Origin: Pseudomonadota bacterium
GTDB lineage: Bacteria; Pseudomonadota; Gammaproteobacteria; Burkholderiales; Thiobacillaceae
Assembly: GCA_021836225.1 (NCBI GenBank)
Contig: JAKBJA010000006.1
Location: 1-19,707, forward strand
Direction of reading: 5' to 3'
DNA: 19,707 nucleotides
Shown here piece by piece: positions 560 through 13,768 of the stretch. A program made the translations under genes and the position numbers. Below the pieces are notes generated by a model. That model did no database searches and was not told the DNA's origin. It saw nothing but the letters and a program-made list of their open reading frames with translations. Within the stretch, counting starts at the first letter, position 1. Each line of letters opens with the position of its first letter.

Positions 560-1543
560 TTACTTACCGCCGCCGCCTGGCGGACCTTTCGGCATCTTCG
601 GCATCCTGCCGGCCGCCATTCTGCTCATGATGACCGCGCCAACGCCGCCGGCACCCGCACCGCCGCCGCCGATCATTGCCGCCGCCAGGTCGTCGGCGCG
701 GAACAACATGAACGCGACGAACACGATGACCGCCGCCGACGCCATGAAGCCGCCGATTTTGCCGGCAATCTCTTGAGCCAGCGGCAGATTCGGATCCCGG
801 CTCATGAGCGCCATGGCGTCAGTGAAGCTCTCAATCGACGTGACAGCGATCATCGCAATCGTGATGCCGACGACAAGCGCGAAGCCTTGACTCAACATGA
901 ATTGCAGCCAGTTGCGCGCCAGGTGCGCCGCCGGGCCGAACGGCATCCAGGCAAGCAGCAGCGGGCCGAAGATGATGCCCAGATGCAGCGCCAGCAGCGG
1001 GCCGTAGAGAGCGAAGATCAGCGCGACGGACAGCAGGATCGCGAGCGCGAACAGGATCAGTTCGAGCAGGGCTTGAGTAAGCCCGGAAACAAGCATGCCG
1101 CCAAATGATTCATTCGATACAACAAACGCCTTCACTTTTTCGTAAGCCGTCCGCTCGTCTGGATTTCGAGCATTCGGAAACATCGCATGCGAGAGCTTTG
1201 TGATCGTCTGACTGATCGCTTCCGGGCCGCTCGTCGCGCCGCCGGTATTGAGAATCGGCTGCGTCAGCCCGGCACTGAAAAAATTCGATGTGGCGGTCAT
1301 CGTGCTTTTCCAGTTGTCGCCGCTGAGAAGCGTCATCGGAATGATGAGAATCAAGCCCGCCCGCGTGATGCGAGCGAGCGCGCCCGACACTTCGCCCATC
1401 CACCACTGGTAGACCGCGAACAACAGCGCGAGCACGAACGCCAGCGCGAGCATTTGCAGAGCAATCGGAATGAAAACAGTGTGCATCTTCTCTGCTGAAG
1501 TGATGAGCGGATCTAGCAGTCCAGCAATGTCTCCAAGTGCCAT
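560..1543 (-). CDS. trbL: TrbL/VirB6-family inner-membrane transfer protein
   Basis: A 327-residue polytopic membrane protein of the TrbL/VirB6 family, which forms the inner-membrane part of type IV secretion channels. Visible are hydrophobic segments at about 25-47 and 52-70, a long hydrophobic block at about 150-205 carrying a GPLLLAWMPFG stretch typical of the family, two later segments, and a Gly-rich C-terminal tail. The chosen ATG has GGGAG about nine bases upstream; a TTG five codons earlier has no comparable site. It lies directly after the 91-residue gene and last before a terminator, so it sits in a trbJ-trbK-trbL-like order. The other subunits of the machine are absent from the plasmid. 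Family assignment is fairly secure; whether it works with a helper channel is inference. Confidence 0.8.
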   Translation of the reverse strand: MALGDIAGLLDPLITSAEKMHTVFIPIALQMLALAFVLALLFAVYQWWMGEVSGALARITRAGLILIIPMTLLSGDNWKSTMTATSNFFSAGLTQPILNTGGATSGPEAISQTITKLSHAMFPNARNPDERTAYEKVKAFVVSNESFGGMLVSGLTQALLELILFALAILLSVALIFALYGPLLALHLGIIFGPLLLAWMPFGPAAHLARNWLQFMLSQGFALVVGITIAMIAVTSIESFTDAMALMSRDPNLPLAQEIAGKIGGFMASAAVIVFVAFMLFRADDLAAAMIGGGGAGAGGVGAVIMSRMAAGRMPKMPKGPPGGGGK

Positions 1544-1547
1544 TTTT

Positions 1548-1823
1548 TCAGCTCCCAAAAATCAGGTCGTAAAACAACCACACGTAGCACGCGACGGACA
1601 CCGGCGCGAGCATGGTGAGCCTGGGGTTCTGCTGGGCGAAGTCGATGGCGAACGCCCGCCAGTCGAAGCCATCCGGCCGGGTGGCCACGTCCTCGCCGGC
1701 CTCGCGCCGGCGGGCAACGTCGGCCATAAGCTCGGCGCGCTCAACTTCGCCGCGCTCGACGAGCCGGGCGACAAGATCAACAACTCTTGCTTCTGCCTTG
1801 TTTTCCATGATTATGTTTTCCAT
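1548..1823 (-). CDS. Small membrane protein in the TrbK position (possible entry exclusion)
   Basis: A 91-residue protein with a charged helical N-terminal half rich in Arg, Glu and Ala and one C-terminal hydrophobic segment (about residues 70-88). It starts 2 bp after the trbJ-like stop and ends 4 bp before the trbL-like start, so the three genes are one transcript. In IncP plasmids this slot holds trbK, the entry-exclusion lipoprotein, but I see no signal peptide or lipobox here, so the match is positional only. The start region is odd: a 15-bp unit ending in ATGGAAAAC occurs twice in tandem and gives two in-frame ATG codons (1823 and 1808). No good ribosome site is visible, which suggests translational coupling to trbJ. 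Confidence 0.7.
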   Translation of the reverse strand: MENIIMENKAEARVVDLVARLVERGEVERAELMADVARRREAGEDVATRPDGFDWRAFAIDFAQQNPRLTMLAPVSVACYVWLFYDLIFGS

Positions 1824-1825
1824 GA

Positions 1826-2584
1826 TTATTTGGCGAACTCGTGCGGTAGCTTCAGCTTGCCGACCGGCGGCGCTTCAAGCTCGGCGCGGCGGCGCGCATC
1901 CATCACTGCCGCTTCTCGGCGCTGCACGCGCTCAAGTTCGTCTTGCCGGAGCTTCGCTTCGTGTGCGGCATTCGCATTGGCCGTCGCGATCGAGCCGGCG
2001 ATGTCCGCGAGCGTTGCTTGCACCTGCACGTTCTGCGTCGCGAGAAACTGGATGCCCTTCACGTTGGCGTCGATGCTCTTCACCGTGTCAGCCTGCTTCT
2101 GCACATCCTTCGAAGTTTCGGCGAGGCGGCGCAGCTTCGCCTGCTCCTGCTCGTAGGTCTGCTGATAGACGCCGCCATGCTTGTAGGCGGCATCGGCCTT
2201 CAGGCGCAGCAGATCGGACGGCGTAATACCGAGGCGCTGAGAGTCGGCGGCCGCCTTGCGCAATACGCCTTCCGCGTCCTTGTAGACCCCGTGCGCCTGC
2301 GACATGACCCGGTAGGCTTCCGCCATCGCGCGCACTTTCTCAAGAGGCAGCCCTTTCATGGACTGATCTATTACGGACTGCGGCAATTGGCGAAGCTGTT
2401 GCATCGTCGCTTGCGCCGCCATAAGCGTGTTCGAAGTAGTGTTGATGGCTTCGCTTACCTGCATCACCAGCTCGGCGTGGTTCATGATCTGGGTGACTTC
2501 GGTAGCACCGCCTGTCGCTGCGCCGGCGTGGGCGCCGGATACTGGAAAAGCGAATGCGATTGAGACAAGAAAGCGGCGGATCAT
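1826..2584 (-). CDS. trbJ: TrbJ/VirB5-like periplasmic transfer protein
   Basis: A 252-residue secreted protein. It opens with a signal peptide (MIRRF, hydrophobic stretch, cleavage likely after AHA near residue 20), followed by a long, mostly helical Gln/Ala/Lys-rich body, as in VirB5/TrbJ minor pilus proteins that are needed for donor-recipient contact. In IncP, TrbJ together with TrbK also gives entry exclusion. The start overlaps the stop of the 49-residue gene as ATGA and has GGAG eight bases upstream. The last residues, APPVGKLKLPH plus a short tail, recur almost unchanged at the end of the 161-residue protein at 18619-19104, with a shared 20-base DNA match. The family call rests on architecture and gene order. 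Confidence 0.72.
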   Translation of the reverse strand: MIRRFLVSIAFAFPVSGAHAGAATGGATEVTQIMNHAELVMQVSEAINTTSNTLMAAQATMQQLRQLPQSVIDQSMKGLPLEKVRAMAEAYRVMSQAHGVYKDAEGVLRKAAADSQRLGITPSDLLRLKADAAYKHGGVYQQTYEQEQAKLRRLAETSKDVQKQADTVKSIDANVKGIQFLATQNVQVQATLADIAGSIATANANAAHEAKLRQDELERVQRREAAVMDARRRAELEAPPVGKLKLPHEFAK

Positions 2585-2730
2585 TTGCGGTCTCCTTTTT
2601 TCAAGTGATCGAGAAGGTCGAGAACAGTGCGCGGTCGTGTTTGCGAGGGTTTCGACAGATAGTCGAGCACGGTTTTGTTTCGCGACGTGCGCAGCGGCGG
2701 AATGACGACAGGGGTGTGCGAGTCTTTCAT
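2581..2730 (-). CDS. 49-residue leading protein of the trbJ-trbL operon, unknown
   Basis: A short basic protein (MKDSHTPVVIPPLRTSRN...) ending in LLDHLKKGDRK. It is supported by context: AAAGGA lies just upstream of the ATG, a full leader module precedes it (2736-2792), and its TGA overlaps the trbJ ATG as ATGA, the same coupling used by other real gene pairs here. I recognise no family. It has no membrane segment or cysteine motif. It may regulate or couple translation of the transfer genes, but nothing in the sequence shows that. Confidence 0.65.
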   Translation of the reverse strand: MKDSHTPVVIPPLRTSRNKTVLDYLSKPSQTRPRTVLDLLDHLKKGDRK

Positions 2731-2735
2731 GTGTT

Positions 2736-2792
2736 TCCTTTCCGCCCGGCGGAAATGCCGGGCCTGTCTACTTCAGCAAAAAGCGGAAGCGC
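2736..2792 (-). promoter_or_regulatory. Leader module copy 1 (trbJKL operon)
   Basis: Read on the minus strand: a GCGCTTCCGC block, the core CTGAAGTAG, a GC-rich hairpin (GCCCGGC/GCCGGGC) and then the GGAAAGG ribosome site before the ATG at 2730. The same arrangement recurs at six other places. No consensus sigma70 promoter is evident inside it. Confidence 0.8.
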
Positions 2793-2814
2793 AAAAAACC
2801 CGGCGCGTGGCCGC
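2793..2814 (-). terminator. Probable terminator of the zinc-ribbon protein gene
   Basis: Directly after the stop codon at 2815 the minus strand reads a short CGGC/GCCG stem followed by six T. The stem is weaker than the other terminators here, but its position and T-tract fit. Confidence 0.55.
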
Positions 2815-3267
2815 TCAGGGAACAAACTTGTTGCCGCACTTGCGACAAAAAAACTCTCTCTCCCACCTCTCGCGCTCAATCTCCCAGGCCGCGAGCTTCG
2901 GCGCGCGGACATGCTTTCTGTGCAGGAAAAAAGCCGCCACCGCGGCAGCGACAGGAAGGGCGACAAAATGAATCGGTAGGGTAGGCAGCGGCAGCACACC
3001 CGGCAGAACCAGCCAGTACGCTAGAAAAACAAAAGCGGAGAAAAACACTCCCGGCAAAACAGACGGGCGGACCGGCGCCGCAAGCTCTTCCGCGAGCCGA
3101 GAGCGCGTCACTCTCGTTTCTCGCCTCGCAGCCCCGCTTGCGGGGTCGCGAGTCTCCGCTTCGACGGTTCGAGTTTCGAGCGCGACGACGACGGGAACTG
3201 ATTGAATATGAGGCGAGCCGCACCTTGTGCAGACCATCCCGCCGACCTGTTCATTTAGGTGGTTCAT
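2815..3267 (-). CDS. Two-zinc-ribbon membrane protein, unknown function
   Basis: A 150-residue protein with a CTRCGSPH zinc-ribbon half near residues 13-20 and a second CRKCGNKF pair at the extreme C-terminus. Between them are a charged, Arg-rich segment (about 30-65) and two hydrophobic segments (about 72-95 and 98-115). The four cysteines may come together as one ribbon on the cytoplasmic side, with the two helices forming a membrane hairpin. The ATG has AAAGGA five bases upstream and follows leader module copy 2; a terminator follows the stop. It stands alone between the relaxase side and the trb operon. I do not recognise a named family. Confidence 0.75.
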   Translation of the reverse strand: MNHLNEQVGGMVCTRCGSPHIQSVPVVVALETRTVEAETRDPASGAARRETRVTRSRLAEELAAPVRPSVLPGVFFSAFVFLAYWLVLPGVLPLPTLPIHFVALPVAAAVAAFFLHRKHVRAPKLAAWEIERERWEREFFCRKCGNKFVP

Positions 3268-3272
3268 AGGTT

Positions 3273-3328
3273 CCTTTCCGCCCGGCGGAATTGCCGGGCT
3301 TGGCTACTTCAGGCGAAAGCGGAAGCGC
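3273..3328 (-). promoter_or_regulatory. Leader module copy 2 (zinc-ribbon gene)
   Basis: Same order as copy 1: GCGCTTCCGC, the core CTGAAGTAG, a GCCCGGC hairpin and GGAAAGGAA before the ATG at 3267. The bases just before the core differ (TTTCGC instead of TTTTTG). It directly follows the terminator at 3330-3352. Confidence 0.8.
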
Positions 3329-3329
3329 G

Positions 3330-3352
3330 AAAAACCCCGCCGAAGCGGGTTC
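3330..3352 (-). terminator. Rho-independent terminator of the 103-residue gene
   Basis: On the minus strand CCCGC and GCGGG pair around a TTCG loop and are followed by five T. Its sequence is nearly identical to the terminator after trbL at 531-553, so it may have been copied together with neighbouring leader DNA. Confidence 0.85.
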
Positions 3353-3373
3353 TTGTGAGGCATCTCGCGCAGG

Positions 3374-3685
3374 TCAGACCGAGCAGCGCCCGGTGCTCGG
3401 CCTGTCGCCAAGTTCGACGCCGATCTTTTGCGAAAACTCAATCGCTTGAGCTTTTTCCCCTGCGACCCACAGATCGACGCCATTCGTTAGCTCGACACAC
3501 AGCCGCCCAGACATGGTTTCGTAAGACACTCGCTCGATCTGATTTCTCGGCACATTAGTCCATGCGCTAGCAAATGCCAGATGATCGCTCAGAATAAAAA
3601 CCATATCGGAACCACCATCGCAGCCAAACTCGCTAATCCAGTCAGACTTTTCTTCGCTCATTTCAATCATGCTTTTTTGTTTCAT
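3374..3685 (-). CDS. Small acidic soluble protein, unknown function
   Basis: A 103-residue protein without signal peptide or membrane segment. It has alternating strand-like stretches (DMVFILSDHLAF, QIERVSYETMSGRLCVELTNGVDLWVAG), which suggests a small alpha/beta fold. The ATG at 3685 is preferred over the one two codons earlier because AAAGG lies six bases before it, whereas the upstream ATG abuts the ribosome site. Leader copy 3 precedes it and a UUCG terminator follows, so it is a single-gene unit. It shares size and general character with the 105-residue protein at 19132-19449, but I see no convincing alignment. No family recognised. Confidence 0.7.
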   Translation of the reverse strand: MKQKSMIEMSEEKSDWISEFGCDGGSDMVFILSDHLAFASAWTNVPRNQIERVSYETMSGRLCVELTNGVDLWVAGEKAQAIEFSQKIGVELGDRPSTGRCSV

Positions 3686-3691
3686 CTTCAT

Positions 3692-3747
3692 CCTTTCTGC
3701 CCGGCGAAAATGCCGGGGATGTCTACTTCAGCAAAAAGCGGAAGCGC
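3692..3747 (-). promoter_or_regulatory. Leader module copy 3 (103-residue gene)
   Basis: GCGCTTCCGC, TTTTTG, the core CTGAAGTAG, a CCCGGC/GCCGGG-type hairpin and AGAAAGG, in the same order as copy 1. It follows immediately after the relaxase terminator at 3748-3771. Confidence 0.8.
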
Positions 3748-3771
3748 AAAAACCCGGCGCGCGGCCGGGTG
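3748..3771 (-). terminator. Rho-independent terminator of the relaxase operon
   Basis: On the minus strand a 6-bp stem CCCGGC/GCCGGG with a 5-base loop is followed by five T, about 14 bp after the relaxase stop codon. Confidence 0.85.
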
Positions 3772-3784
3772 GTTGAGGAAGCGA

Positions 3785-6700
3785 TCATCGTTCAAAATCG
3801 CGGTCTGTTGCCGCTTTGCCGTCTTTGACTTTTGTTTCGAGCTTGTCGCGAGCTTCCGAGCGCATGGCGCGGGTCTCGATGGCGGCTGAGAGCTTCGCGC
3901 GGATAGACTCTTGTGTTGAGGCGCCGCGCCAGCCTTCGGCGTTGAGCTTCTGCATTGTCTTGTCTTGCAGCTTCGCCCAGGCCTTGCTGACTGCTCCGGT
4001 TTCCTTCGATTGAATCCGCCCGCGCAGCTCGTCGCGGTCGCGCCCGAACGCCTTTTGCTTCATGGTGTCGCGGCCGACGACGACTTTCTCGCCGATTTTG
4101 ATCGAGGTCTTGATGCCGAAGACTTCGAGCTTCTTGTCTACGATCTTCGCGGTCTTTGCAGTCATGCCGAGGGTTTTCGCCTGGCGGAGCTTCACTTCGC
4201 GCACACGTCCGTGCAGCTCGCGGTGATACGTCTTTCCGTTCTTGTATAACAAATAGCGTTCGCCCTTGCTGTCGAACTCCCACTTTGCGCGGCCTTTCTC
4301 GATGTCCTTCGCGATCTTGGCGGGCTGCGGCATCTGGCCTTTCGTCTTGAGGGCTTTGGCGGCTAGCTCGCCGTCGCGGCGGCGTTCTTCGCCGGTGCGG
4401 TGGTCAGGCTGACGGCCTGACTGTGGGGCAGCCTGAGCGTCAGGCTGGGGGTTAGGCTGACGCGGCTGGTCGGCTCGCGTAAAGCGCGGGCGGTCGGTGG
4501 CGTCGGCGCGCTTATAGTCCGCGCTGGTGTCCTTGTCCCGCGCCCGGCTCATCTCCTTCAGCAGCTCGTCGCGCTGCGCCGACGTGTGGTGATACGTCAT
4601 GCTTTCACGATGGCGAGAGGCGGCAACGTAGCTCAAGCTGCGGTCGCTCATGGCGCTGTCGTGTACGACGTGCGCCCGGTCGATCGTCACGCCTTGCGAC
4701 TTGTGGACGGTCGCGGAATAGGCGTGGTCGATGTGCTTGTATTGCTGGTCTGAGACTTTCAGCTCTTTACCGTCTCCGTCGCGCTTCATCGTGAGCTGGC
4801 CGTCCCGGGCGTCGGTCACAGTCCACGTCTGGCCGTTTTTGACGTTCAGCCCCCGGTCGTTTTGAAGAGTGATAACCCGGTCGCCGGCGGCAAACTGCTT
4901 GTCTTTCTCGGGGCTGTCTTTGCCGGCTTGGGTGGTGAAACGGGCGTCGTCGCCTTTCAGGATGCCCTGCTCGCGTGCGAGCGTGCGGGCCCGCTCGTTG
5001 ATCGCGGCAACGTCCGAGCGCCTGGCGGCGAGCGCCATGCTTGATTTGCCTTCGCCCAGGTCTGAAATGACGTTCTTCGCGATCTCCCGCCGTGCGGTGT
5101 CGGTGTCGGCGTGCTCGCGCAAGTAGCCGCGTTCTTGCATGATCTCGACTGCTTTCCCGGCGTCGCCGGCTTTCAGCGCCAACACCATCTCTTTGTCGCG
5201 GTCGTCGTGCTGACGGCGGATCTCGTTCATCTCGGCGTGCTTGCCGGCCGCGTCGCGCATCGAGCGCATCGCGCCCCCGGCGTCGATAGGCTGCAGCTGC
5301 CGGGTGTCGCCGACGAGCACGAGCTTTGCCCCGGCCCGGTCGCAGTGATCCTTGAGCTGCGACATGAGCCGGCTGCCGGCCATGCCGGCTTCGTCCACCA
5401 CGATGACGGTTTGCCGTCCGAGCTGCAGTTCACCCTTTTCAAGCCGGTTGAGCGTGCTATGGATCGTGTCTGACTTGATGCCTGAACCTTCTTCGAGTCC
5501 TGAAGCCGCTTTGCCGGCCAGCGCCGCACCGATAACCTGGTTGCGGTCGCGCTCCCAAACTTCCCGAGCCGCGCCGAGCATGTAGCTCTTGCCGGCTCCG
5601 GCGGTGCCTTCGACGACGGCGAAGCTGCGGGCGTTGTCGGTGATGTGAGCCAGGGCCGCTTTCTGCTCGTCGGAGAGCGTCCGTTTGCTGATGACGGATT
5701 CGAGGGTGTCGGCGGAGACGCGGGCAGTCGTCTCAGTGCGTGCCGCGCGTTCGGCGTAGTCCGACAGGCCTTTCTCGATTTCAAGCATCTCGCGCGAAGT
5801 CCAGCGTTCTTCGCCGTCGCGGCCGACGAGCTGCACCAGCTCGCCAGACTTGCGCAGCTCTTCGAGCTTCGACAGGGCACCATCGATGCCGCCGCCAGCG
5901 GTCTGCGCCTGCTCGAAAGCATAGCGTTCGAGCTGCTGCCGGGTGAGCGTCGAGGCTTCCGAGAACGCGCGTTCGGTGAGCTTCGCCGGGTCGCGTTCGG
6001 GTGTCGGTTGGTTCTTGAGAGCTTCGGCAGAAAAGCCGTTTTCTGCGGCTGCGGTGCGGGCAGACTCGAAAGCGGCGGCGCGGGGGTTGTCAGCTTTCGC
6101 GGTACGGGTAGAAAGCGCGTGAACGTCGCGTGCGGCCTGGGACTTCTGGCCCGTTGCGGCTGCGGCTGCGGCAATCTCTGCCGAGCGGCTGGAAAGCTGC
6201 TTTTCAAGGTCGGGCGGGAAGCCGGCCAGGCGGAAAGATTTACGGTCGGTGTCGATATGGAAGCCGAGCTTTTCCAGTTCGGCGGCGAACTCGGCGCGGT
6301 ACGCGGTGCCGATGGCGTGCGCGTGCGTCGTCTGGAAGTCGATGCGCTTGCCGTTCTCGGCGATGTTACTAATAACGGCGTGGGTGTGAAGGTGCGGCTC
6401 GCCGGCCCTGTTTGAGCTGTGCTCGAAGGTGGCTGCGGCGATCTCGTGGTGAGGAACCTTGACGGCCCCGGCGTGACCTTCTCGCTGCACGAATGCGCCG
6501 CTGTGCTCGACATAGCGCAAGGCGGATTCGACCGCTCTTTGCTGCGCTTCGCTGATTGCTTTTTGAAGCTCGGGCGATGCCGCCGCCCAAGCGATTGAGA
6601 CAGACTTGGGCGCGGAAAATGTCAGGTCGTAGCCCGGTTTGTGCTTGCCCGCGCCCGCGTTGTTCGACAGCTTTTCGCCGGTTCGCGGATCGAACCCGGT

Positions 6701-6892
6701 CAGCGTCGCCGTGAGGTCGCCGCGCCTGACTTGCTCACCTGCAAAACCGCGTTTTTCTGCGAAGCTGCCAACCCACTTACCCGCCGGTTCGTCGTGCTGC
6801 TTGGCGTTCGGGTTTTCGGCTCCGAGCTGGTAGTTTTCGTAGTACGCGGCGATGCCAGCACCGCCGGCAGGGATTGATTTGATCGACAACAT
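3785..6892 (-). CDS. trwC: MobF-family conjugative relaxase-helicase (TrwC/TraI-like)
   Basis: This 1,035-residue protein should nick oriT, stay bound to the 5' end of the strand and unwind the plasmid for transfer. The N-terminal relaxase domain shows the catalytic tyrosine pair AAYYEN (Y17/Y18), [13 protein letters not shown] (about 88-99) and the metal-binding triad in GEPHLHTH (H167, H169, H171). A superfamily-1 helicase follows, with Walker A GTAGAGKS (429-436), Walker B VVDEAGM (about 498-504), GDTRQLQP (about 528-535) and a late [12 protein letters not shown] motif. A charged C-terminal region of about 250 residues ends the protein. The start at 6892 has GGAGGGG upstream and matches the usual MLS beginning of TrwC; an in-frame extension to 6961 lacks support. 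Length is normal for MobF proteins. It ends the accessory-relaxase operon. Confidence 0.95.
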
Positions 6893-6894
6893 TG

Positions 6895-7077
6895 TTAACC
6901 CCTCCCGCGTCGCGCGGATTGATGAAGCGGCTTCCACGACGGCGCTGTGTATCGCACGCAAGCGCCGCGCGGCTCCCGGATGCCGGCGAGACAGAAAATC
7001 TCGTTTGGCGCGTCCATACGCTCGCGGCGTACATAGAAATTCAGGCAGTCACGCTGCCGGCAGGTTGTCGGCGTCAT
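6895..7077 (-). CDS. Possible 60-residue ORF bridging accessory gene and relaxase
   Basis: An open frame begins at an ATG that overlaps the stop of the 71-residue gene (ATGA) and ends two bases before the relaxase ATG. It therefore fits the space exactly and would couple translation across the operon. The product is basic, with three cysteines, and resembles nothing I know. The relaxase has its own strong ribosome site inside its last codons. The layout argues for translation; the unremarkable composition argues for caution. Confidence 0.35.
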
Positions 7078-7289
7078 TCTGCGTCCCCCGACGCGCCGGG
7101 GGCGGCGCTGCTGGCGTCGAGAATCTGAGAAAGGCGCGCAGCGGAAATGCCGCGTGACTGAATCAGTTTCACCAGTTCGCGCTGCTCAGACTCGCGGGCT
7201 GCCCGCTCGGCTTTTGCGAGCTGGGCGTCGATCTGTTTTATCTGAGAGACGAGTTTTTCGCGGCGGGTTTTCAGTTTTTCGATGCTCAT
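7074..7289 (-). CDS. Small coiled-coil accessory transfer protein (TraD/MobC-like)
   Basis: A 71-residue, highly charged protein. Residues 2-40 (KLKTRREKLVSQIKQIDAQL and onward) form a clear heptad-pattern coiled coil, followed by a short helix pair (LVKLIQSRGISAARLSQIL) that could bind DNA or a partner. Small coiled-coil proteins of this kind often lie beside relaxase genes and help build the relaxosome. The ATG has GGAG eight bases upstream, and leader copy 4 precedes it. It opens the operon that ends with the relaxase, so a relaxosome role is likely from context; the exact family is not established. Confidence 0.75.
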   Translation of the reverse strand: MSIEKLKTRREKLVSQIKQIDAQLAKAERAARESEQRELVKLIQSRGISAARLSQILDASSAAPGASGDAE

Positions 7290-7310
7290 GGTTTTGCTCC
7301 TTTTTTTGAC

Positions 7311-7368
7311 GGGTTGCGCGGCAATGCGCAGCCAACTACTTCAGTAAAAAGCGGAAGCGCGGAAGCGC
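7311..7368 (-). promoter_or_regulatory. Leader module copy 4 (relaxase operon)
   Basis: GCGCTTCCGC occurs twice in tandem here, followed by TTTTTA, the core CTGAAGTAG and a hairpin of different sequence (TGCGC/GCGCA) before the GGAG ribosome site. The hairpin sequence differs while its position is kept, which suggests that the fold matters. It begins right after the stop of the upstream RHH gene. Confidence 0.75.
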
Positions 7369-7369
7369 A

Positions 7370-7867
7370 TCAGGCGGGCGGGCGGGTTGGGAATTTGGCG
7401 GCGTCAAACGCTTGTGGGGTGGGTCCGAAACTGCGGGAATCGGACGGATCGGGCCAATTCTGATAGAGCACGAAATAGCGAGACGCGGCGCGGAGAAGAA
7501 AGGAGGTGTCGTCTTCGTTTTGCCTTTTCTCGACGCCCTCGACGGCGAGCCGAGCGCGATACTCGCGAAAGCTGGGGATGCGCAGGAACTCGGCGAGCTG
7601 CGACAAAAGCGTGTCGAAAGCACGGGCGCTCGCCGACAGCGATTCGTCGATTTCTGAGAGCCGGCTTTCGACGGCGGAAAACCGCGATTCGTCGAAAGCC
7701 GGGGCGGCTGTGGCGGGCTGCTGCGGCTGCGGTTTCGCCATCGCACCGCCTGTCAACAGAATGCGCGCCAGGCGGGATTTCGGCATGTTGAGAATCTTCG
7801 CCTGCCGTTCGAGTTCAAGCAGTTCGGCGGCTTCGAGCCGAACGTCGATCTTGTGTGTCTTGCTCAT
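7370..7867 (-). CDS. Ribbon-helix-helix relaxosome accessory protein (TrwA/MobC-like)
   Basis: A 165-residue protein with an N-terminal ribbon-helix-helix domain at residues 4-40: strand KIDVRL, helix ELLELERQAKIL, then MPKSRLARILL. Such domains in TrwA, TraY and MobC bind oriT and also repress their own operons. A Pro/Gln/Ala linker (about 44-58), a helical segment (about 60-100) and a Pro-rich tail follow. It lies just upstream of the coiled-coil and relaxase genes and next to a repeat-bearing non-coding region that is the best oriT candidate, the same layout as trwA in R388. Leader copy 5 precedes it; the ribosome site is weak (GGAA). The DNA-binding role is well supported; the TrwA equivalence is inferred. 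Confidence 0.82.
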   Translation of the reverse strand: MSKTHKIDVRLEAAELLELERQAKILNMPKSRLARILLTGGAMAKPQPQQPATAAPAFDESRFSAVESRLSEIDESLSASARAFDTLLSQLAEFLRIPSFREYRARLAVEGVEKRQNEDDTSFLLRAASRYFVLYQNWPDPSDSRSFGPTPQAFDAAKFPTRPPA

Positions 7868-7891
7868 GTCTTGTTCCCACGAAATGTCGGA

Positions 7892-7936
7892 CAGCGGAAA
7901 AGCCCGCTGCTAAGACACTTCAGCGAAAAGCGGAAA
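7892..7936 (-). promoter_or_regulatory. Leader module copy 5 (RHH gene), diverged
   Basis: The most divergent copy: TTTCCGCTTTTCG, then CTGAAGTGT in place of CTGAAGTAG, then a hairpin CAGCGG/CCGCTG. The order of elements is preserved. It lies within the putative oriT region, so RHH autoregulation could act here. Confidence 0.65.
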
Positions 7937-8059
7937 CGAAACGTCGGCGCACGTCGGACAACCGTCGGACAGCGCAAAGCCGCGTTGCCACGAGGTTTTA
8001 GCCGCGCAGCGACGACACTGTGGTGGGTAGGGTGTCTCTTGAAAAAATGAGAATGGGTA
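7937..8059 (-). other. Candidate oriT region
   Basis: This non-coding stretch lies between the HNH gene and the RHH accessory gene, where MobF plasmids such as R388 keep oriT. GTCGGACA occurs at 7953-7960 and 7964-7971, with a third copy at 7886-7893 and a partial one at 7943-7947; such repeats could be accessory-protein sites. Further on the plus strand reads GGGTAGGGTGTCTCTTG (about 8025-8041), whose TGTCT resembles the R388 nic context (TTGTCT). No long inverted repeat flanks it. The location is good and the nic assignment is a guess. Confidence 0.4.
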
Positions 8060-8617
8060 TTACGTCATGCCGTAGACTTCCGCCCCGAGGCTTTTGAAGA
8101 ATTGCTCTACTTGTCCTTCGAGATGAATTTCAAAAACAATGATTGCCGCATACCCGCTATGCAAGCGCACAAAGCGTAGGCCTGGCGTTTTACGGTAAAG
8201 CTCAACGGCAGAAGGGACGAAGCCGCGAAAGATGTAAGCGGTATTGTTGGACTTGCCGAAAGTCTCTCGTCTGACGAAAGGCGATGTCAGTCCGCCGGAC
8301 ACGACAAAACCGCGTTCCGTTTTCTCTCCGGCTCTCGGCTCAACATCAAGCGGAACCTTCGCGTGTTTTTTGAGATTGCATGTTCGGCAGGACGCGCGGA
8401 GATTGTCTAACGAATGCGCGCCGCCGTTGTTCAATGGGTCGTAGTGGTCGGCCGCGAAATTCTCGAATGTCAGCGCGGCACCACAGTAAAAGCATCGCGG
8501 CTCTTTGTCAGATTTAAAAACGATCTTCCGGAAAAGCTCTTCCAGATTTCCGCAATACATCCCGCGCCCAATGAAAGCGCCAAGCGCTCGTTTGTAATAA
8601 AGCATCGTGTTGTTCAT
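8060..8617 (-). CDS. HNH endonuclease-like protein
   Basis: A 185-residue protein with a zinc-bound HNH/beta-beta-alpha-Me nuclease core at residues 42-85: CFYC (C42, C45), AADHYDPLNNGG with D57-H58, N72 in LDNLRASC, and the second pair C77-RT-C80 followed by NLKKH. The C-terminal 100 residues are alpha/beta and unrecognised. The ATG at 8617 has GGAAAGGG eight bases upstream, directly after the coupling-protein terminator, so it is probably its own unit; a TTG six codons upstream was not chosen. No obvious terminator follows. It lies between the coupling protein and the putative oriT. It could be a homing-type nuclease, an anti-competitor nuclease or a transfer-linked enzyme; the sequence does not say which. 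Confidence 0.82.
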   Translation of the reverse strand: MNNTMLYYKRALGAFIGRGMYCGNLEELFRKIVFKSDKEPRCFYCGAALTFENFAADHYDPLNNGGAHSLDNLRASCRTCNLKKHAKVPLDVEPRAGEKTERGFVVSGGLTSPFVRRETFGKSNNTAYIFRGFVPSAVELYRKTPGLRFVRLHSGYAAIIVFEIHLEGQVEQFFKSLGAEVYGMT

Positions 8618-8633
8618 CGTGGGAACCCTTTCC

Positions 8634-8661
8634 AAAAAAGCCCCGGCTTTGAGACCGGGGC
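8634..8661 (-). terminator. Rho-independent terminator of the coupling-protein operon
   Basis: On the minus strand GCCCCGG and CCGGGGC pair around an 8-base loop and run into six T. It begins about 23 bp after the coupling-protein stop and ends just before the HNH ribosome site. Confidence 0.9.
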
Positions 8662-8684
8662 AAGGCTGGCGCTGCGTGAAAAAG

Positions 8685-10358
8685 TTAGAGAAGGTCGAGC
8701 ATGTCGGCTTCGGCCGCTTGTGCGCGATCCGTGCCGCCAGCCTGCTTCTGCTCTTGCTGCTTGACTTGTGGTTTCACGCGCACACGCGGCGGCGCGGCAA
8801 CGAACACTTCGGCTTCTTTGTGAGGCCGCGCGATCTGCAAATTCACGACTGCGGAAGGCGTCGGCCCGGCGAGGTTGAAGATGCCGCGCAGGTCGGGCAT
8901 TTGCTGAAGCTCGGACGGCAAGACGACTCGATCTTTGACTACTTGCTCTTGCCAGTTGTCAGACTTCGAGCTGCTGAGTTGCATAGACTGCGAGCTTTCG
9001 CCGCCGCTCTTCACGATTCGCGTTTTCTCTTCTTCGCCCAAGAAGCGGGACATGTACTCTGCCGTCTCGGCGTCAGAAACTCGCAACACGAGCCAAGAAC
9101 CCAGGCACGCGAGAAGCGTCTGAGCCGTCTCGTTGCCGTATGCCTCGCGAATTTGCGCGACGGTCTGCAGCCCAGCAAAAATCATCGCGCCATGCTTCCG
9201 GCCATTCGTCGCCAAATCGATGATGCTTTGAATTTTTCCAAGCAACGGCAATTCGTCGAGCGCGAACACGACCCGGCGATCATGAGAAGGTGGCAGCGAC
9301 AAAACCGCGCGGCTCGCCACGTCTACGCAACAAGCGATCATCGATTTCAGAGCGTCCCGGTGCTGTTGCTGGTAGCTCAAAAAGAGAAAACCGGCGCGGT
9401 CGGAATGCAGATACCGACGGATCGAAAAACCGTTCTGCGCGTCGGCGTTGGGGTCCAGATATTGCAAAAATTTTGCCGCGCTCGAAGCGATGCCACGGAT
9501 CGAGCCGAACATGCGTTCGTTGCCGTCGGCCACCAGCGGCTGAGCCGGCGTTCCGGCGCACACTTCGCGCAGCTCTTCGATGTCGGCGACTACCAAAATT
9601 CTGAAAAGCTCGCCGTTCCCCAAGCCGGCCGTCAGGCAATGTTCGAGGACGGCTTCTACGAATGTTTGAGCGTAGCTGTTCCACTCGGCCGCGCTGCCCT
9701 CGCCGTCCGGCACCAAGCTTTTTGCAAGCGCCGGCACGTCGGCGACGCTCTCAAGTTCAGACAATGGCGACCAGCGCACGCAGCGCGAGTCAAACGGATT
9801 CAAAATCGCGTCCTGCCCGCCTTCGCGGTAGTAGCGCGAAGTGTAAATGCCGCTTGCGTCGGCGATCACCGCGAGCGCGCCGTCTGCGCGCAGCGCGTCG
9901 AGAGCGTGCGTCAATGTTTGCGACTTGCCGGTTCCGGGTGAGCCCGCCAACAGAAAGCCCCTGGTCTCCAACTCGACGGGCACCGGCACGGCGCCGACGC
10001 TGAAGCGCGATTGAGAGTGCTTGAGCTGCTTCGCGACGGCACGCTCGTCAACGACCAGGGCGCCGCGCAGGTGGTTTTTGTTGGCGACGCCCACCCCGGC
10101 TTTCACTGCTACCCAGTGCCAGCCGTGGCGCGCGAGGTTAACCAAAAAAGCAAAGATCGCGACGCCGATGAGCAGGTCGCCGATGCCATTGATCTGCTGC
10201 CGGCCGACGAGCGCCATGAGCGCGACAAAAGCCGCGCCGATCGACGCGTTGAGCGCCCAGCTCTCAGCAGCGAACCATTCTTTTTCGAGCAGCTTCGGCC
10301 GGATGATCCAGAGCCAGGCCGACAGCCCGGCGGCGATTAGAAAATAAACGATAGTCAT
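8685..10358 (-). CDS. trwB: Type IV coupling protein (TrwB/TraD family)
   Basis: A 557-residue membrane ATPase that brings the relaxase-DNA complex to a type IV secretion channel. Three hydrophobic N-terminal segments (about 2-19, 38-53 and 58-75) anchor it. The ATPase domain has Walker A GSPGTGKS (139-146) and Walker B VVFALDE (363-369), followed by GRKHGAMIFAGLQTVAQI, a typical TrwB/TraD stretch. It ends in a short acidic tail (EADMLDLL), as coupling proteins often do. Start: AAAGG lies eight bases before the ATG, and the 91-residue membrane gene ends just upstream, so the two are co-transcribed. Having its own coupling protein but no channel ATPase is unusual: many small mobilisable plasmids borrow both. 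Confidence 0.93.
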   Translation of the reverse strand: MTIVYFLIAAGLSAWLWIIRPKLLEKEWFAAESWALNASIGAAFVALMALVGRQQINGIGDLLIGVAIFAFLVNLARHGWHWVAVKAGVGVANKNHLRGALVVDERAVAKQLKHSQSRFSVGAVPVPVELETRGFLLAGSPGTGKSQTLTHALDALRADGALAVIADASGIYTSRYYREGGQDAILNPFDSRCVRWSPLSELESVADVPALAKSLVPDGEGSAAEWNSYAQTFVEAVLEHCLTAGLGNGELFRILVVADIEELREVCAGTPAQPLVADGNERMFGSIRGIASSAAKFLQYLDPNADAQNGFSIRRYLHSDRAGFLFLSYQQQHRDALKSMIACCVDVASRAVLSLPPSHDRRVVFALDELPLLGKIQSIIDLATNGRKHGAMIFAGLQTVAQIREAYGNETAQTLLACLGSWLVLRVSDAETAEYMSRFLGEEEKTRIVKSGGESSQSMQLSSSKSDNWQEQVVKDRVVLPSELQQMPDLRGIFNLAGPTPSAVVNLQIARPHKEAEVFVAAPPRVRVKPQVKQQEQKQAGGTDRAQAAEADMLDLL

Positions 10359-10361: not shown

Positions 10362-10637
10362 TTAGCCTTTTCGAAAAAACAGATAGAAAAATGGCGCGGT
10401 GAGCAGCGCAGCGCCGGCCCCGGCTGAATACAAAAGCTCACGGCGAGCGATCAGCGCGCCCTGCGCGTCGAGCGTGAAAGCGTGGTAGACAGCCAGCGCG
10501 TAGCGCGGCAGCACTTGAAGCTCTCGCTCGAAAACAAAAAAATGCAGGTACAGCAAACCGCCGGTCAGGCCGCCCAGCAGCGCCAGGCCGACAATCAATC
10601 TGATCCGCCAGGCGAGTTCGTTCGTTTCTCGTTTCAT
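10362..10637 (-). CDS. Small two-helix membrane protein co-transcribed with the coupling protein
   Basis: A 91-residue protein with two hydrophobic segments (about 12-34 and 69-88) separated by a loop of about 35 residues, and ending FFRKG. The ATG follows leader copy 6 with GGAAAGGG in place; an open frame continues upstream to 10967 but runs through the leader and repeats and is not coding. The stop is four bases from the coupling-protein ATG. A role in assembling or stabilising the coupling protein in the membrane is a reasonable inference. No family recognised. Confidence 0.75.
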   Translation of the reverse strand: MKRETNELAWRIRLIVGLALLGGLTGGLLYLHFFVFERELQVLPRYALAVYHAFTLDAQGALIARRELLYSAGAGAALLTAPFFYLFFRKG

Positions 10638-10642
10638 GTGTC

Positions 10643-10700
10643 CCTTTCCGCCCGGCTGAAAAATGCCGGGGATGTCTACTTCAGCAAAAAGCGGAAGCGC
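10643..10700 (-). promoter_or_regulatory. Leader module copy 6 (coupling-protein operon)
   Basis: Nearly identical to copies 1 and 3: GCGCTTCCGC, TTTTTG, CTGAAGTAG, a CCCGGC hairpin and GGAAAGGG. It lies directly downstream (minus sense) of the TTTCGGAAA repeat array. Confidence 0.8.
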
Positions 10701-10726
10701 GCCGCGCCAGATTGTCCTAATTAGAA

Positions 10727-10820
10727 CTTTCCGAATCCGAAACACCTTTCGGAAATGCCTTTCGGAAACACCTTTCGGAAATGCCTTTCCGAATCCGAAA
10801 CACCTTTCGGAATCGGAAAC
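10727..10820. repeat. Short direct-repeat array (TTTCGGAAA family), possible iterons or partition site
   Basis: Three tandem 13-bp units CTTTCGGAAA(T/C)(G/A)C occupy 10746-10784. They are flanked on each side by a 19-bp unit CTTTCCGAATCCGAAACAC (10727-10745 and 10785-10803), and a related CTTTCGGAATCGGAAAC tail ends the array at 10820. Units are head to tail with no spacers. The array sits between the replication operon and the transfer leader copy 6, where iterons, a centromere or operators could all lie. Confidence 0.85.
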
Positions 10821-10865
10821 CGGCTTGAAAGCCTTTGTTGGCGCGGACGGGTCCAGCCGGCACGT

Positions 10866-10899
10866 TAAAAAGCCCGTGGTGCTTCTCAGCACGACGGGC
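10866..10899 (-). terminator. Strong rho-independent terminator downstream of repC
   Basis: On the minus strand a long stem (GCCCGTCGTGCT with AGCACCACGGGC, one mismatch) closes a 4-base GAGA loop and is followed by five T. It lies about 180 bp past the repC stop and would end the replication operon. Confidence 0.88.
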
Positions 10900-11081
10900 G
10901 GGGGTTGGGGTTGCCCGCGTCGGCGATTGAGTCGTGGCGGGCGGTTTTCGGCGGGTGAGGGTGTCACCTATGCCCGCCGGGGCGGCGGGCTGGGGATTCG
11001 CGCAGGGCGTACCACTGCGCGTCTTCTTTCAGCCGCCCGCCCTCGGGCGGCATGGGTGTCGTGGTTTAGCGGGCTGGGGCA
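10900..11081. other. GC-rich non-coding part of the probable oriV region
   Basis: No supported gene lies between the repC stop and the terminator. The stretch is very GC-rich, with local palindromes such as CCCGCC/GGCGGG near 10975-10990. With the iterons inside repC (11140-11202) on one side and the 13/19-bp array (10727-10820) on the other, it is the likeliest place for the vegetative origin. In IncQ-type plasmids such hairpins can be single-strand initiation sites, but no specific match is claimed. Confidence 0.45.
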
Positions 11082-12056
11082 TCAAGCCCCGGCCCCGGCC
11101 CCTTGGGGTAATTTCCTTATAGGAAATTCCTTAGAGACCGGGGTTTTTGCGTCCACCACCGGGGTTTTTGCGTCCACCACCGGGGTTTTTGCGTCCACGC
11201 CCTGTATTTCCGGGCTTTCCGACGGCCCCGGCGCTGTGATGAAAGCGCCTTTTTGCCGAGAGTAGTGCAGCCGCAGGCCGTCGATCTCGATACCCAGCTC
11301 GGCGAAGGCCCCGGCGCTTTCTCGAAGCTGCTGCACGTAGCGCCTGGCCTGCCTCGACGCTGCGCGCCCGGTGATGGGTTCGCCGGGCTGGACAGCGCCG
11401 ACCGCCGCCAGGACGCGCGCGATCTCGTGGTGCTGGTCGTGGCTGTGTGACAGACACCAGCGCGCCACGGCCCGGCTAACCGTGTTCGGCAGCGCCAGCA
11501 CTTTTGCGAGCACATCACGCGATAGCGTGATGGTTGCATGCGTCTCAATCAGACTTGAGAAACCGGCTGACAGCACAAGACGTTTCAAGCGCGCCGGGAA
11601 TTGATGCGGTGCGCGAACCGCCGCCGAATTCGCATCGCCGACGAAGGTGGCGAGCGGAAACGCGGCGCCCCATGCGCCCGGCGTGTCGCCGTCGAGCTGC
11701 ATGACTGTAGAGAGCATGTCGAGAAGGTCTTCTCGCACATCGCGCCAGTTCACTCGGCTCGGTAGCAGCTCGCGCACCTTCGCCGAGTCGAAGATCAAGT
11801 GCTCCTGCCGGGCGCCGTCGGTGATCCGATGCTCCGCAACCGCGCGGATCACGTCGAGCAAGTCGCGGTGATGCTGCGTCACGCCGCCGGCGATCACCCG
11901 CACGAACCCGTAAGATTCGCTGCCGCTGATCGCCGGGGTTGCGCCTACCGCTACGTGAGCACGGCCGACGGCGAACAGCGGCCGGCGGTACTCCGCCGCC
12001 GATGCGGTCGGCCGGGTCGGGCGCTTGGGTTTAGATGTTCCATGGGTCGATTTCAT
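11082..12056 (-). CDS. repC: RepC-like replication initiator
   Basis: A 324-residue protein following RepA, the position of the IncQ iteron-binding initiator RepC. The N-terminus is basic and disordered; the middle (about 45-225) is mixed alpha/beta with helix-rich stretches that fit winged-helix initiators (RDLLDVIRAVAEHRITDG, REDLLDMLSTVMQLDG). The C-terminus carries VDAKTPV three times in tandem (about 287-307). The start at 12056 overlaps the end of repA by 26 bases and has AAAGGGGG just upstream; a longer frame to 12191 lies entirely inside repA. Coding iterons at the 3' end support an origin-binding role. The middle is too diverged for me to prove RepC family membership, so position carries most of the call. 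Confidence 0.72.
   Translation of the reverse strand: MKSTHGTSKPKRPTRPTASAAEYRRPLFAVGRAHVAVGATPAISGSESYGFVRVIAGGVTQHHRDLLDVIRAVAEHRITDGARQEHLIFDSAKVRELLPSRVNWRDVREDLLDMLSTVMQLDGDTPGAWGAAFPLATFVGDANSAAVRAPHQFPARLKRLVLSAGFSSLIETHATITLSRDVLAKVLALPNTVSRAVARWCLSHSHDQHHEIARVLAAVGAVQPGEPITGRAASRQARRYVQQLRESAGAFAELGIEIDGLRLHYSRQKGAFITAPGPSESPEIQGVDAKTPVVDAKTPVVDAKTPVSKEFPIRKLPQGAGAGA
11110..11128. repeat. Perfect 8-bp inverted repeat in the 3' end of repC
   Basis: AATTTCCT and AGGAAATT are separated by TAT. It is an AT-rich patch in otherwise GC-rich sequence, 12 bp from the 21-bp iterons and still inside the coding region (KEFPIRKLP). It could be an initiator dimer site or a melting region. Confidence 0.7.
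11140..11202. repeat. Three tandem 21-bp iteron-like repeats inside repC
   Basis: The units begin at 11140, 11161 and 11182, each GGGGTTTTTGCGTCCAC plus a variable last four bases. The first two are identical and the third differs only at the end. Because 21 bp is seven codons, they encode VDAKTPV three times on the minus strand. Length, number and tandem order match plasmid origin iterons. Confidence 0.85.
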
Positions 12057-12924
12057 TGCTTCCCCCTTTCTTGCTCGTACCCGCCGCCGTCTTCCGCATC
12101 TCATACTCGTGCCGCACCAGCACGCCGCCCTCTTCGCGGCGCAGCCAAATATCGAGCTGTGGCGGGCAGTAGTTCGCTTTCGTAACGCCATAACGGACGT
12201 AATGTTTGCGCTCGTCCTCGTTGTACCCGAACGTCTGCGCTTCCTGCGTTGTCATCGTCTGCAAAAACGCTACCCAGCGCGCTTCGTCAACGAATACCGA
12301 GCTGCCGCGCGACGATTGTTGTTTGTCGCCATCACCGTTCATCGCCGCCGCTTTGTTCGTGTGGTGCAGAAAAACAACTGCCGCGCCGGTGTCTGCCGCA
12401 ACCTTTTCCATTTCGCGCATTACTCTCGCCGCGTCGCGACGCTCGTTCTCTTCGCCGGTGTGCCAGCGCGAAAGCGTGTCGATCACAACCAGACGCGCGC
12501 CCCGTGCGACCTTCTCGATGTCTGCGGTGGTCTTGCCGTTGTCAAGAAAGTCGCCGGCTTTGCCGAGACACGGCAGTATCAAAGAGTTCGACTTGAGGTT
12601 TTCGCGTTCGCAATCACCAAGATGCCCGGCAACAGCTTTTAGCCTGGTGTGTAATGCGTTTACCGGGTCTTCCGCTGCGAAAATGACCGCCGTTCCGGTC
12701 GGGTATTGACCGATTCCGAGCATATCTTTGCCGGTCGCGATCTGTGTAAGCAGTTCGAGCGCCGCGAAACTTTTGCCAGTCGCGCCTGGTGCGATCAGCG
12801 AGCCGACGGTGCCAGCCAGAAGCCCCGGAAGCACGAAGTCGAGCGGTTCGGGTTCGGTATCGAGCGCGCGTGCGATGTCGAGAACGGGCCAGGCGAATCC
12901 GGAATCATTGATGACGATGCTCAT
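12031..12924 (-). CDS. repA: RepA-type replicative DNA helicase (RSF1010/IncQ family)
   Basis: A 297-residue hexameric RecA-fold helicase that unwinds the plasmid origin. Features: PLDFVLPGLLAGTVGSLIAPG leading into Walker A APGATGKS (45-52), AAEDP (about 83-87), Walker B LVVID (145-149) with TLSRWHTGEEN, then VVFLHHTNKAAAMNGDGDKQ and QSSRGSSVFVDEARW (about 183-217). These blocks closely follow RSF1010 RepA as I remember it, including the length. Its ATG overlaps the stop of the zinc-finger gene (ATGA), and repC starts within its last codons, so helicase and initiator are translationally linked as in IncQ plasmids. The IncQ primase RepB' is missing. Family identity is the most secure call in the replication operon. 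Confidence 0.95.
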   Translation of the reverse strand: MSIVINDSGFAWPVLDIARALDTEPEPLDFVLPGLLAGTVGSLIAPGATGKSFAALELLTQIATGKDMLGIGQYPTGTAVIFAAEDPVNALHTRLKAVAGHLGDCERENLKSNSLILPCLGKAGDFLDNGKTTADIEKVARGARLVVIDTLSRWHTGEENERRDAARVMREMEKVAADTGAAVVFLHHTNKAAAMNGDGDKQQSSRGSSVFVDEARWVAFLQTMTTQEAQTFGYNEDERKHYVRYGVTKANYCPPQLDIWLRREEGGVLVRHEYEMRKTAAGTSKKGGSNEIDPWNI

Positions 12925-13370: not shown

Positions 13371-13768
13371 ACACGCCCCCCGCCGCCAAACAAATCGCCC
13401 TGCTGCGCCCGCTTCACCTGCGCGGCGATGATCTGCCGAGCGCGCCGCGTGGTGACGCCGTAATCGGCCGAGATCGAGCGCGCAATTTCGCGCTTTTTTT
13501 TCCCGCCGTCCGGCGCGTGCGTGTGGGTATCGGCGACGCCATCAAGCCCCCGCCCGTAGTGCGCCAGGTCTTGCGTAAACCGGCGGCACGCGCTGCGAGC
13601 GCGGTTGAAAATCGTGCGGATGGTGTCGTCGCGGCTCGCTTCGAGCAGCACCACCGCGACTTGCTGCACCAGCTCGTCGATGTCGCCGAAGCGTGCGGCG
13701 TGAGCGCGGATCCATGTTTGAAGCTCGGCGGGGAACGTGGCGAGCGTGCGGAGAGTGAGCGCGTTCAT
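13367..13768 (-). CDS. Sigma-like/HTH DNA-binding protein of the replication operon
   Basis: A 133-residue protein. The N-terminal half (LQTWIRAHAARFGDIDELVQQVAVVLLEASRDDTIRTIFNRARSACRRF) has the spacing and charge pattern of sigma-factor region 2. The C-terminal half contains a likely helix-turn-helix (KKREIARSISADYGVTTRRARQIIAAQVKRA). Small proteins of this kind occur in phages and plasmids beside replication genes. Both junctions are ATGA overlaps. It could activate a plasmid promoter or bind the origin; I cannot choose between these, and the similarity to sigma factors is my reading of the pattern. Confidence 0.7.
   Translation of the reverse strand: MNALTLRTLATFPAELQTWIRAHAARFGDIDELVQQVAVVLLEASRDDTIRTIFNRARSACRRFTQDLAHYGRGLDGVADTHTHAPDGGKKKREIARSISADYGVTTRRARQIIAAQVKRAQQGDLFGGGGRV

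Follow-up and report, generated by a model that had tools for sequence, protein, structure and literature searches.

The window studied here, a stretch of 19,707 nucleotides from a bacterium of the Thiobacillaceae (contig JAKBJA010000006.1 of assembly GCA_021836225.1), is, as judged from its sequence, the circular form of an integrative mobilizable element (IME). The element encodes a MOBF relaxase, its own TrwB-type coupling protein and, as the only recognizable parts of a type IV secretion system (T4SS) channel, TrbJ (VirB5) and TrbL (VirB6). A further gene, at 18619-19104, encodes a protein whose C-terminal tail resembles that of TrbJ, and it is probably the exclusion gene of the element. 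It appears somewhat likelier to be right than wrong that this is an IME whose own stalk would replace that of a helper, with the 18619-19104 protein as the cognate exclusion protein and the VirB5 tail as the donor-side mark. The combination of a MOBF relaxase and an own coupling protein with stalk genes is new.

The trbJ-trbL Block and the Search for Other Transfer Genes

A preliminary description of this DNA had reported a closed circle with a MobF relaxase, a TrwB-type coupling protein and an isolated block of trbJ, a small gene and trbL. All of these were found again at their places (Table 1). The two ends of the window overlap exactly over 127 bp, which closes the circle. TrbL was identified by Pfam, above the cut-off of its model. 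It is 332 amino acids (aa) long and is 83% identical to its counterpart in an integrated relative, locus L091, with a ratio of nonsynonymous to synonymous substitution (dN/dS) of 0.16. TrbJ was identified by homology. It has no T4SS match in Pfam and a partial match, over residues 12-65, to the NCBIfam TrbJ model PRK13842 (E 2.9e-6, far below the cut-off of the model). It is 30% identical to an annotated TrbJ (E 2.4e-13) and 27-29% identical to TrbJ of Burkholderia plasmids (E 4e-10 to 1e-9). By sequence, no relative was found in the PDB, where a single match was at chance level. Relatives of TrbL or TrbJ were not found in viral contigs, nor were relatives of TrbL in plasmids by tblastn.

The best support for the TrbJ assignment is a protein encoded between VirB4 and TrbL in L157, a 19.6-kb contig of genome G463 that carries VirB11, VirB4, TrbJ, an 84-aa gene, TrbL, VirB8 and VirB9. 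Its TrbJ is 67% identical to that of the window over 218 aa, but has a different C-terminal tail. The two TrbL proteins are 32% identical. A cluster of the L157 type can be regarded as a candidate helper only.

The small gene between trbJ and trbL probably starts at 1808 and not at 1823, because 29 related proteins, that of the window included, are 84-90 aa long. Its product has a hydrophobic C-terminal segment by eye. The 84-aa gene of L157 occupies the same place and has no BLAST similarity to it. The small gene was considered as the exclusion gene and rejected, since its tail is not shared and L157 has a similarly sized gene at this position. By position it appears to be a stock gene of T4SS clusters and not the tail-sharing protein.

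It had also been reported that VirB4, the core channel, the pilin and VirB8 are missing, and they were not found here either. Among 21 genes picked from the list of open reading frames (ORFs) of the window, only trbL and the coupling protein gene exceed the Pfam cut-off for T4SS families. ORF 2815-3267 gave a chance-level match to PrgI, which is VirB3-like (E 0.14; 13.1 bits against a cut-off of 27). Nothing was found by tblastn of the window with VirB3, VirB4, VirB8, VirB9, VirB10 and VirB11 of R388, or with VirB4, VirB8, VirB9 and VirB11 of R751 and of L157. The VirB5 and VirB6 queries from R388, plb and pXAG81 miss the window's own TrbJ and TrbL as well, so very divergent small parts (VirB2, VirB3, VirB7) could escape detection. 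As is expected of an IME, no complete T4SS of its own was found by Pfam or tblastn.

A Probable Exclusion Protein with a TrbJ-Like Tail

The 18619-19104 protein has conserved cysteines and, by eye, a hydrophobic segment near the N-terminus. It is 52% identical to its counterpart in L091. A homologue is encoded in genome G450 (L156:16655-17173), and its tail resembles a type of TrbJ tail seen in five other members of the family.

A C-terminal tail held in common with the cognate VirB5 or TrbJ is a feature defined in this analysis and not a published criterion. When the tail of TrbJ was compared with the tails of 189 ORFs of the window, that of the 18619-19104 protein scored 65 and the next best scored 31. 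In an integrated relative, the tails of TrbJ and its partner score 46-48. The preliminary description had proposed that TrbJ and TrbL either exclude related plasmids or are swapped into a helper machine. Both remain the best readings of the sequence, and the likely exclusion protein is neither of the two that were named; its gene lies outside the region described before. Both proposed roles gain support from the trio being kept in relatives, from purifying selection, from the occurrence of a TrbJ with 67% identity within a more complete T4SS cluster, and from the candidate exclusion protein with its TrbJ-like tail.

Tail-Sharing in Other VirB5/TrbJ and Eex/TrbK Pairs

The idea of shared tails arose from inspecting gene ends and from four small plasmids, which are described below. 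In a first scan, the best-scoring ORF tail within 6 kb was taken for each of 93 TrbJ loci, a rule that favors high scores. By this rule a tail partner scoring at least 47 was found in 11 of the 18 loci that have no VirB4 in the stretch fetched.

Two rules were then used for choosing partners. The window and 12 loci (L001, L003, L091, L094 and L097-L104) were left out of both counts, while L002 and L004, of the window's family, were retained. The first rule was based on a lipobox and included out-of-frame ORFs. It covered 53 of 114 loci, with a cognate mean of 26.3 against 15.3; nine of 24 non-redundant loci were above the 99% point (0/20000 permutations). The second rule, adopted after the result of the lipobox rule had been seen, took, on the same strand, the first small gene to encode an N-terminal stretch of hydrophobic residues, and was blind to tails. 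The first rule was the poorer of the two, and its outcome was positive but less strong. It gave a candidate gene in 83 of 114 loci and none in 31. A score of at least 30 was reached at 65 of the 83 loci and at 14 of the 22 that are non-redundant (below 60% VirB5 identity). For these 22 the cognate mean was 35.6 against a non-cognate mean of 15.0, and none of 20000 permutations reached the cognate mean. As a control, 2 of 440 internal segments reached 30.

Annotated pairs were also compared. Of 11 records with VirB5, two (L141 and L142) are without an annotated EexN, hence nine VirB5-EexN pairs were available: R388, IncU, two IncN, pAt and four small plasmids. In each the cognate partner was the best of its row (0/20000 permutations). 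Four of the nine are the plasmids that raised the idea, and one of them, pXAG81, is also in the second-rule set. The five others scored 38 and 31 (IncN), 28 (pAt) and only 23 (IncU) and 22 (R388). Among metagenomic protein pairs tied by equal-sized contigs, for which origin from the same contig is unproven, four of five were alike. Many of the 30 VirB5 loci scanned were without a tail partner. Several VirB loci among L118-L126 have an ORF of about 390-400 aa that starts about 2 kb upstream and has a somewhat VirB5-like tail (24-48).

The shared tails are not recent DNA copies, because the preceding 25 residues are dissimilar (1 of 33 pairs reaches 28, against 23 of 33 for the tails) and because identical tail residues use the same codon in 94 of 207 cases (0.45, with 0.38 expected). 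For tests of covariation only loci with a cognate score of at least 30 were taken. The tails covary given the rest of both proteins (partial Mantel 0.51; 0/2000). For 40 loci with W as the last residue of TrbJ, cognate pairs averaged 57.6 and non-cognate pairs 46.4 (0/20000). Single-linkage clustering puts 79 of 105 tails of the window's TrbJ family into one group, and 24% of 49 pairs with a body identity of at least 90% have dissimilar tails, as expected if tails are exchanged.

The tail could instead be a common sorting, processing or chaperone signal and have no part in exclusion. The two proteins presumably face the periplasm, and a shared C-terminal signal would yield similar tails. This is unlikely, given that the tails covary by system even among the W-ending loci and that internal and upstream segments are unmatched. 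The boldest reading compatible with the sequence data is that in P- and T-type systems the C-terminal tail of VirB5/TrbJ would be the donor-side exclusion mark, that Eex and TrbK would be cognate mimics of it, and that VirB5, VirB6 and the mimic would form a portable cassette, borne by mobilizable elements like this one and able to re-key a helper machine. As a general statement this is tentative, with chances slightly short of even.

The mechanism of eex is called still unknown (PMC9825185), and no donor-side target of Eex or TrbK in VirB-type systems is named in the literature covered. The cognate VirB5-Eex tail would be a specific and testable answer, and the tail pattern across VirB-type systems may explain how the target is recognized in exclusion. 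Tail-sharing is also a route by which exclusion proteins that have gone unrecognized could be found by sequence. It was nowhere stated in the literature searched; the primary trbJ and trbK papers of 1994 and 1996 were outside the scope of that search, so it may be in print.

Proposed Mechanism

VirB5 and VirB6 together make up the stalk of the machine, and VirB5 ends as the pilus tip (PMC12624023, PMC12857230). Carrying both therefore amounts to carrying one physical subassembly. The MOBF relaxase of the element would nick the element's own DNA and its coupling protein would feed that DNA to a T4SS. The element would supply only the stalk, with TrbJ as the tip and TrbL as the platform; the ATPases, core channel, pilin and VirB8 would have to come from a helper element. 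In the assembled machine the element's stalk would replace that of the helper, as TraG, TraH and TraN of SGI1 replace their counterparts from IncC plasmids, and the machine would then bear the element's tip. The 18619-19104 protein, which is membrane-anchored in appearance and has a tail that copies that of TrbJ, would be the matching entry-exclusion protein. A cell bearing the element would recognize and block machines with the same tail, and a re-tipped helper machine would escape the helper's own exclusion protein. The mimic could block transfer by occupying the site where the VirB5 tail docks, be it on the machine itself or within the envelope of the recipient.

The shared tail fits with two published results: the C-terminus of TrbK is essential for exclusion (PMC8923210), and recipients with trbJ or trbK are protected against the RP4 T4SS (PMC11045733). 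The second of these, with the presence of the tail partner, would also suit a purely protective role, in which the TrbJ-TrbL block and the tail partner guard the host cell and are not built into a helper machine. Such a role is quite unlikely. TrbK suffices alone for exclusion in the systems covered (PMC8923210), and for a 332-aa TrbL held under purifying selection in an element with its own relaxase and coupling protein, use in a machine is thus the better explanation.

Several results weigh against stalk replacement with a matching tail-based exclusion protein. The 18619-19104 protein has no lipobox and no match to the EexN or TrbK families; its Pfam and NCBIfam matches are at chance level at most. 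It was tried as a distant EexN and rejected, a profile comparison with nine EexN proteins giving a probability of 0.4% and an E of 0.15. A predicted model of TrbJ gave no informative structural match. At L156 of G450, the TrbJ tail is unlike the tail of the local homologue of the 18619-19104 protein, and orphan relatives at L002/L098, L003/L094, L004/L099, L005, L015 and L080 have no tail partner above background. By the second rule, 8 of the 22 non-redundant loci stay below 30, and no more than 13 of the 22, or 17 of the 83, have their cognate partner as the top score of the row. One metagenomic pair, P0056-P0134, tied only by equal-sized contigs, scores 12. The candidate helper L157 had no tail partner of its own that could be found, and it may be incomplete: its contig stops past VirB9, and no VirB10 was seen. 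From the literature, TrbK of pKPC_UVA01 excludes IncP and IncN plasmids too and is needed also in the donor (PMC8923210), and in F-type systems the donor target of exclusion is TraG, a VirB6-type protein (PMC12624023).

Integrated Relatives and an Apparent Orphan Lineage

A search of a protein collection with TrbJ gave 115 relatives, mostly metagenomic. Of these 109 are close, including the window's own. A MOBF relaxase and an own coupling protein together with the stalk, in a lineage with 108 other close TrbJ proteins, show that the use of partial T4SS sets by mobilizable elements extends beyond IncP islands, GIsul2 and SGI1. A scan with one genome per species gave 97 TrbJ loci. For the best 80, VirB4 was present in the fetched stretch at 62 and absent at 18. 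Among the 18 are the four loci most similar to that of the window, and one of these lies on a contig of 4.2 kb.

Three relatives in metagenome-assembled genomes (MAGs) are integrated between repeats at the ends of tRNA genes, which marks the family as a lineage of IMEs, and the trio is conserved in relatives. Two are in genome G001, which has three elements with a MOBF relaxase and a coupling protein. The first, at tRNA-His with 46-bp repeats, is 71-83% identical to the window in the relaxase, the coupling protein and the trbJ-small gene-trbL block. The second, at tRNA-Val with 51-bp repeats, carries its own trbJ-small gene-trbL block. The remaining element of G001 (L095, G001:C77:160001-180000) lies beside ssrA, and no repeat and no trbJ or trbL were found there. 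In G003, a trbJ-trbL element is integrated at tRNA-Thr with 48-bp repeats; a MOBF relaxase or a related coupling protein was not found in that genome. In G450, an integrase, trbJ, trbL, a MOBF relaxase and a coupling protein lie within a 2.9-Mb contig. Overall, the orphan state of trbJ and trbL seems to characterize a lineage of integrated elements. The assignment of the window to the IMEs, which goes beyond the preliminary description, draws on its integrase and on the three integrated relatives. Its own att core was not found: the window has no tRNA, no match to three tRNA/tmRNA ends and no match in 117 genomes.

The block could be an inactive remnant of a decayed conjugative element, since TrbJ, the small gene and TrbL adjoin in fuller clusters and such a fragment could persist by chance. 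This is very unlikely. All seven genes compared between the window and L091 are open, with dN/dS from 0.14 to 0.38. Values of 0.14-0.21 were obtained for the relaxase, coupling protein, accessory protein, small gene and trbL, and the highest were those of trbJ (0.30) and of the 18619-19104 gene (0.38). The 108 close TrbJ relatives also speak against a remnant. So does the fact that four MOBP plasmids, as well as published IncP islands and GIsul2 (PMC5704250), have retained VirB5, Eex and VirB6 but not the other parts.

It is least probable that the host chromosome encodes the remainder of a dedicated T4SS, which would make the element conjugative there, as the VirB4 of L157 found no match in G001, G002, G003 and G450, the genomes with orphan copies (gaps in the MAGs or a very distant VirB4 being possible). 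TrbJ was matched in 9 of the 117 genomes of the family of G001. The L157 VirB4 was matched in five other TrbJ-bearing genomes of the family, G463 (the query's own), G421, G422, G427 and G430, with only pieces in G427 and G430. A Pfam VirB4 search of the genomes adds little, because the same model missed those pieces.

Comparison with Known Systems

The presence of stalk genes on an IME is not new in itself, having been published for IncP islands and GIsul2 (PMC5704250). These are proposed precedents, with TrbJ, TrbK and TrbL on IMEs (PMC5704250). Like them, the window has TrbJ, a small gene and TrbL side by side and no other pore gene found. The IncP island of Burkholderia glumae and relatives is, like the window, an IME with its own relaxase, TrbJ, a small gene, TrbL and a tyrosine integrase (PMC5704250). 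Its small gene is TrbK-like and 69 aa long, no other mating-pore gene is reported in the part of the account used, and subversion of the helper's pore was proposed (PMC5704250). Unlike the window, it has a MobP relaxase and the relaxosome proteins TraJ and TraK, and a coupling protein is not mentioned in that part (PMC5704250). The window has an own TrwB-type coupling protein, divergent TrbJ and TrbL, and a tail-sharing protein encoded after trbL. Its relaxase is of the MOBF/TrwC type and not MobP, and it is therefore not classed among the IncP islands. As of 2017, MobF relaxases were not known from any canonical IME (PMC5704250). GIsul2 shares with the window the trbJ-trbK-trbL triple on an integrated element, but is without a relaxase and a coupling protein and uses a guaA site (PMC5704250).

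A tested precedent for the replacement of pore subunits by an island that also overcomes the exclusion of its helper is SGI1 (PMC5389848). The preliminary description had likened the window to it. The likeness concerns the proposed mechanism, and the IncP islands and GIsul2, which carry TrbJ, TrbK and TrbL, are closer (PMC5704250). As a proposed functional model for the window, SGI1 is a mobilizable island that brings replacement subunits, one of them a VirB6 homologue, and disables helper exclusion (PMC5389848, PMC5704250). It differs in that its subunits are the F-type TraG, TraH and TraN and that its relaxase and coupling protein are supplied by the IncC helper (PMC5389848). IncP R751 has the TrbJ-TrbK-TrbL gene order, and the tails of its TrbJ and TrbK are shared with a score of 44. 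In contrast to the window, it is a self-transmissible plasmid with its own T4SS, and its TrbK is a lipoprotein encoded between trbJ and trbL.

The plasmid matches of the coupling protein are mostly conjugative plasmids and some small MOBP ones. Five small plasmid records were chosen. Four of them carry VirB5, EexN and VirB6 without VirB3, VirB4, VirB8, VirB9, VirB10 or VirB11 by tblastn, and the fifth (Vibrio japonicus) has neither VirB5 nor VirB6. The four are Xanthomonas plb and pXAG81, Achromobacter pKUN4507_1 and the Sulfuriferula AH1 plasmid. Like the window they have a relaxase, a TrwB-type coupling protein, VirB5 and VirB6, and their VirB5 and EexN tails are alike. They differ in their MOBP relaxase, in having VirB-type and not Trb-type proteins, and in an EexN lipoprotein between VirB5 and VirB6. 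In automated typing (PLSDB/MOB-suite) all four (L081, L082, L083 and L085) are called conjugative, MPF_T, though the only pore genes found are VirB5 and VirB6. A Photobacterium damselae plasmid (L142) has adjacent VirB5 and VirB6 with EexN unannotated, and no other pore gene was found in the 5.7-kb stretch examined.

Gene Content and Layout of the Element

On the minus strand the genes run from a replication-type operon through the coupling protein, an HNH gene, small proteins of relaxosome type, the MOBF relaxase and two small ORFs to trbJ, the small gene and trbL. ORFs 19132-19449 and 18619-19104 sit across the join of the circle, after trbL. The plus strand carries the integrase and a pair of XamI restriction-modification genes.

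Table 1. Features of the circular element, with coordinates in the 19,707-nucleotide window.
Feature	Position	Strand	Evidence
trbL (VirB6), inner-membrane platform of T4SS stalk	560..1558	-	Pfam TrbL E 5.1e-12, above cut-off
Small gene between trbJ and trbL, ~86 aa	1548..1808	-	29 family proteins including the window's own; dN/dS 0.17 against L091
trbJ (VirB5), pilus-tip/stalk protein	1826..2584	-	Homology to annotated TrbJ; 67% identical TrbJ in L157
Codons of last 25 residues of TrbJ (shared tail)	1829..1903	-	Tail score 65
MOBF (TrwC-type) relaxase-helicase	3785..6961	-	Pfam TrwC E 4.6e-58, AAA_30 E 7.1e-54
Small accessory protein, DUF4315 match	7074..7289	-	Pfam E 4.4e-6; counterpart in L001
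Probable relaxosome DNA-binding protein	7370..7867	-	Weak: NikA-like E 0.026, phrog DNA-binding E 0.0023
TrwB-type (type IV) coupling protein	8685..10358	-	TrwB_AAD_bind E 4.2e-108
ORF upstream of coupling protein	10362..10967	-	48% over 164 aa in L001
Replication-type operon with AAA_25 helicase (12031-12924)	11082..14115	-	AAA_25 E 1.6e-33; related ORFs in L091
Intergenic region 5' of integrase, repeated TTGTGGGACGA, possible attP	14116..14604	.	Sequence inspection
Tyrosine integrase	14605..15771	+	Phage_int_M E 1.8e-34, Phage_integrase E 1.4e-15, Arm-DNA-bind_3 E 2.4e-15
XamI-type restriction-modification pair	15834-18328	+	73% DNA identity to four ~35-kb Pseudomonas aeruginosa plasmid records
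Candidate exclusion protein, 161 aa, downstream of trbL on circle	18619..19104	-	TrbJ-like C-terminal tail
Codons of last 25 residues of candidate exclusion protein (tail copy)	18622..18696	-	Tail score 65

At the DNA level, the XamI restriction-modification genes alone were matched in plasmids. An HNH endonuclease gene (8060-8635) lies within the transfer region and is unmatched in the relative L001. The coupling protein is 83% identical to its L091 counterpart (dN/dS 0.21), and the probable relaxosome DNA-binding protein is 81% identical (dN/dS 0.14). The final part of the ORF upstream of the coupling protein resembles a small membrane protein by eye.

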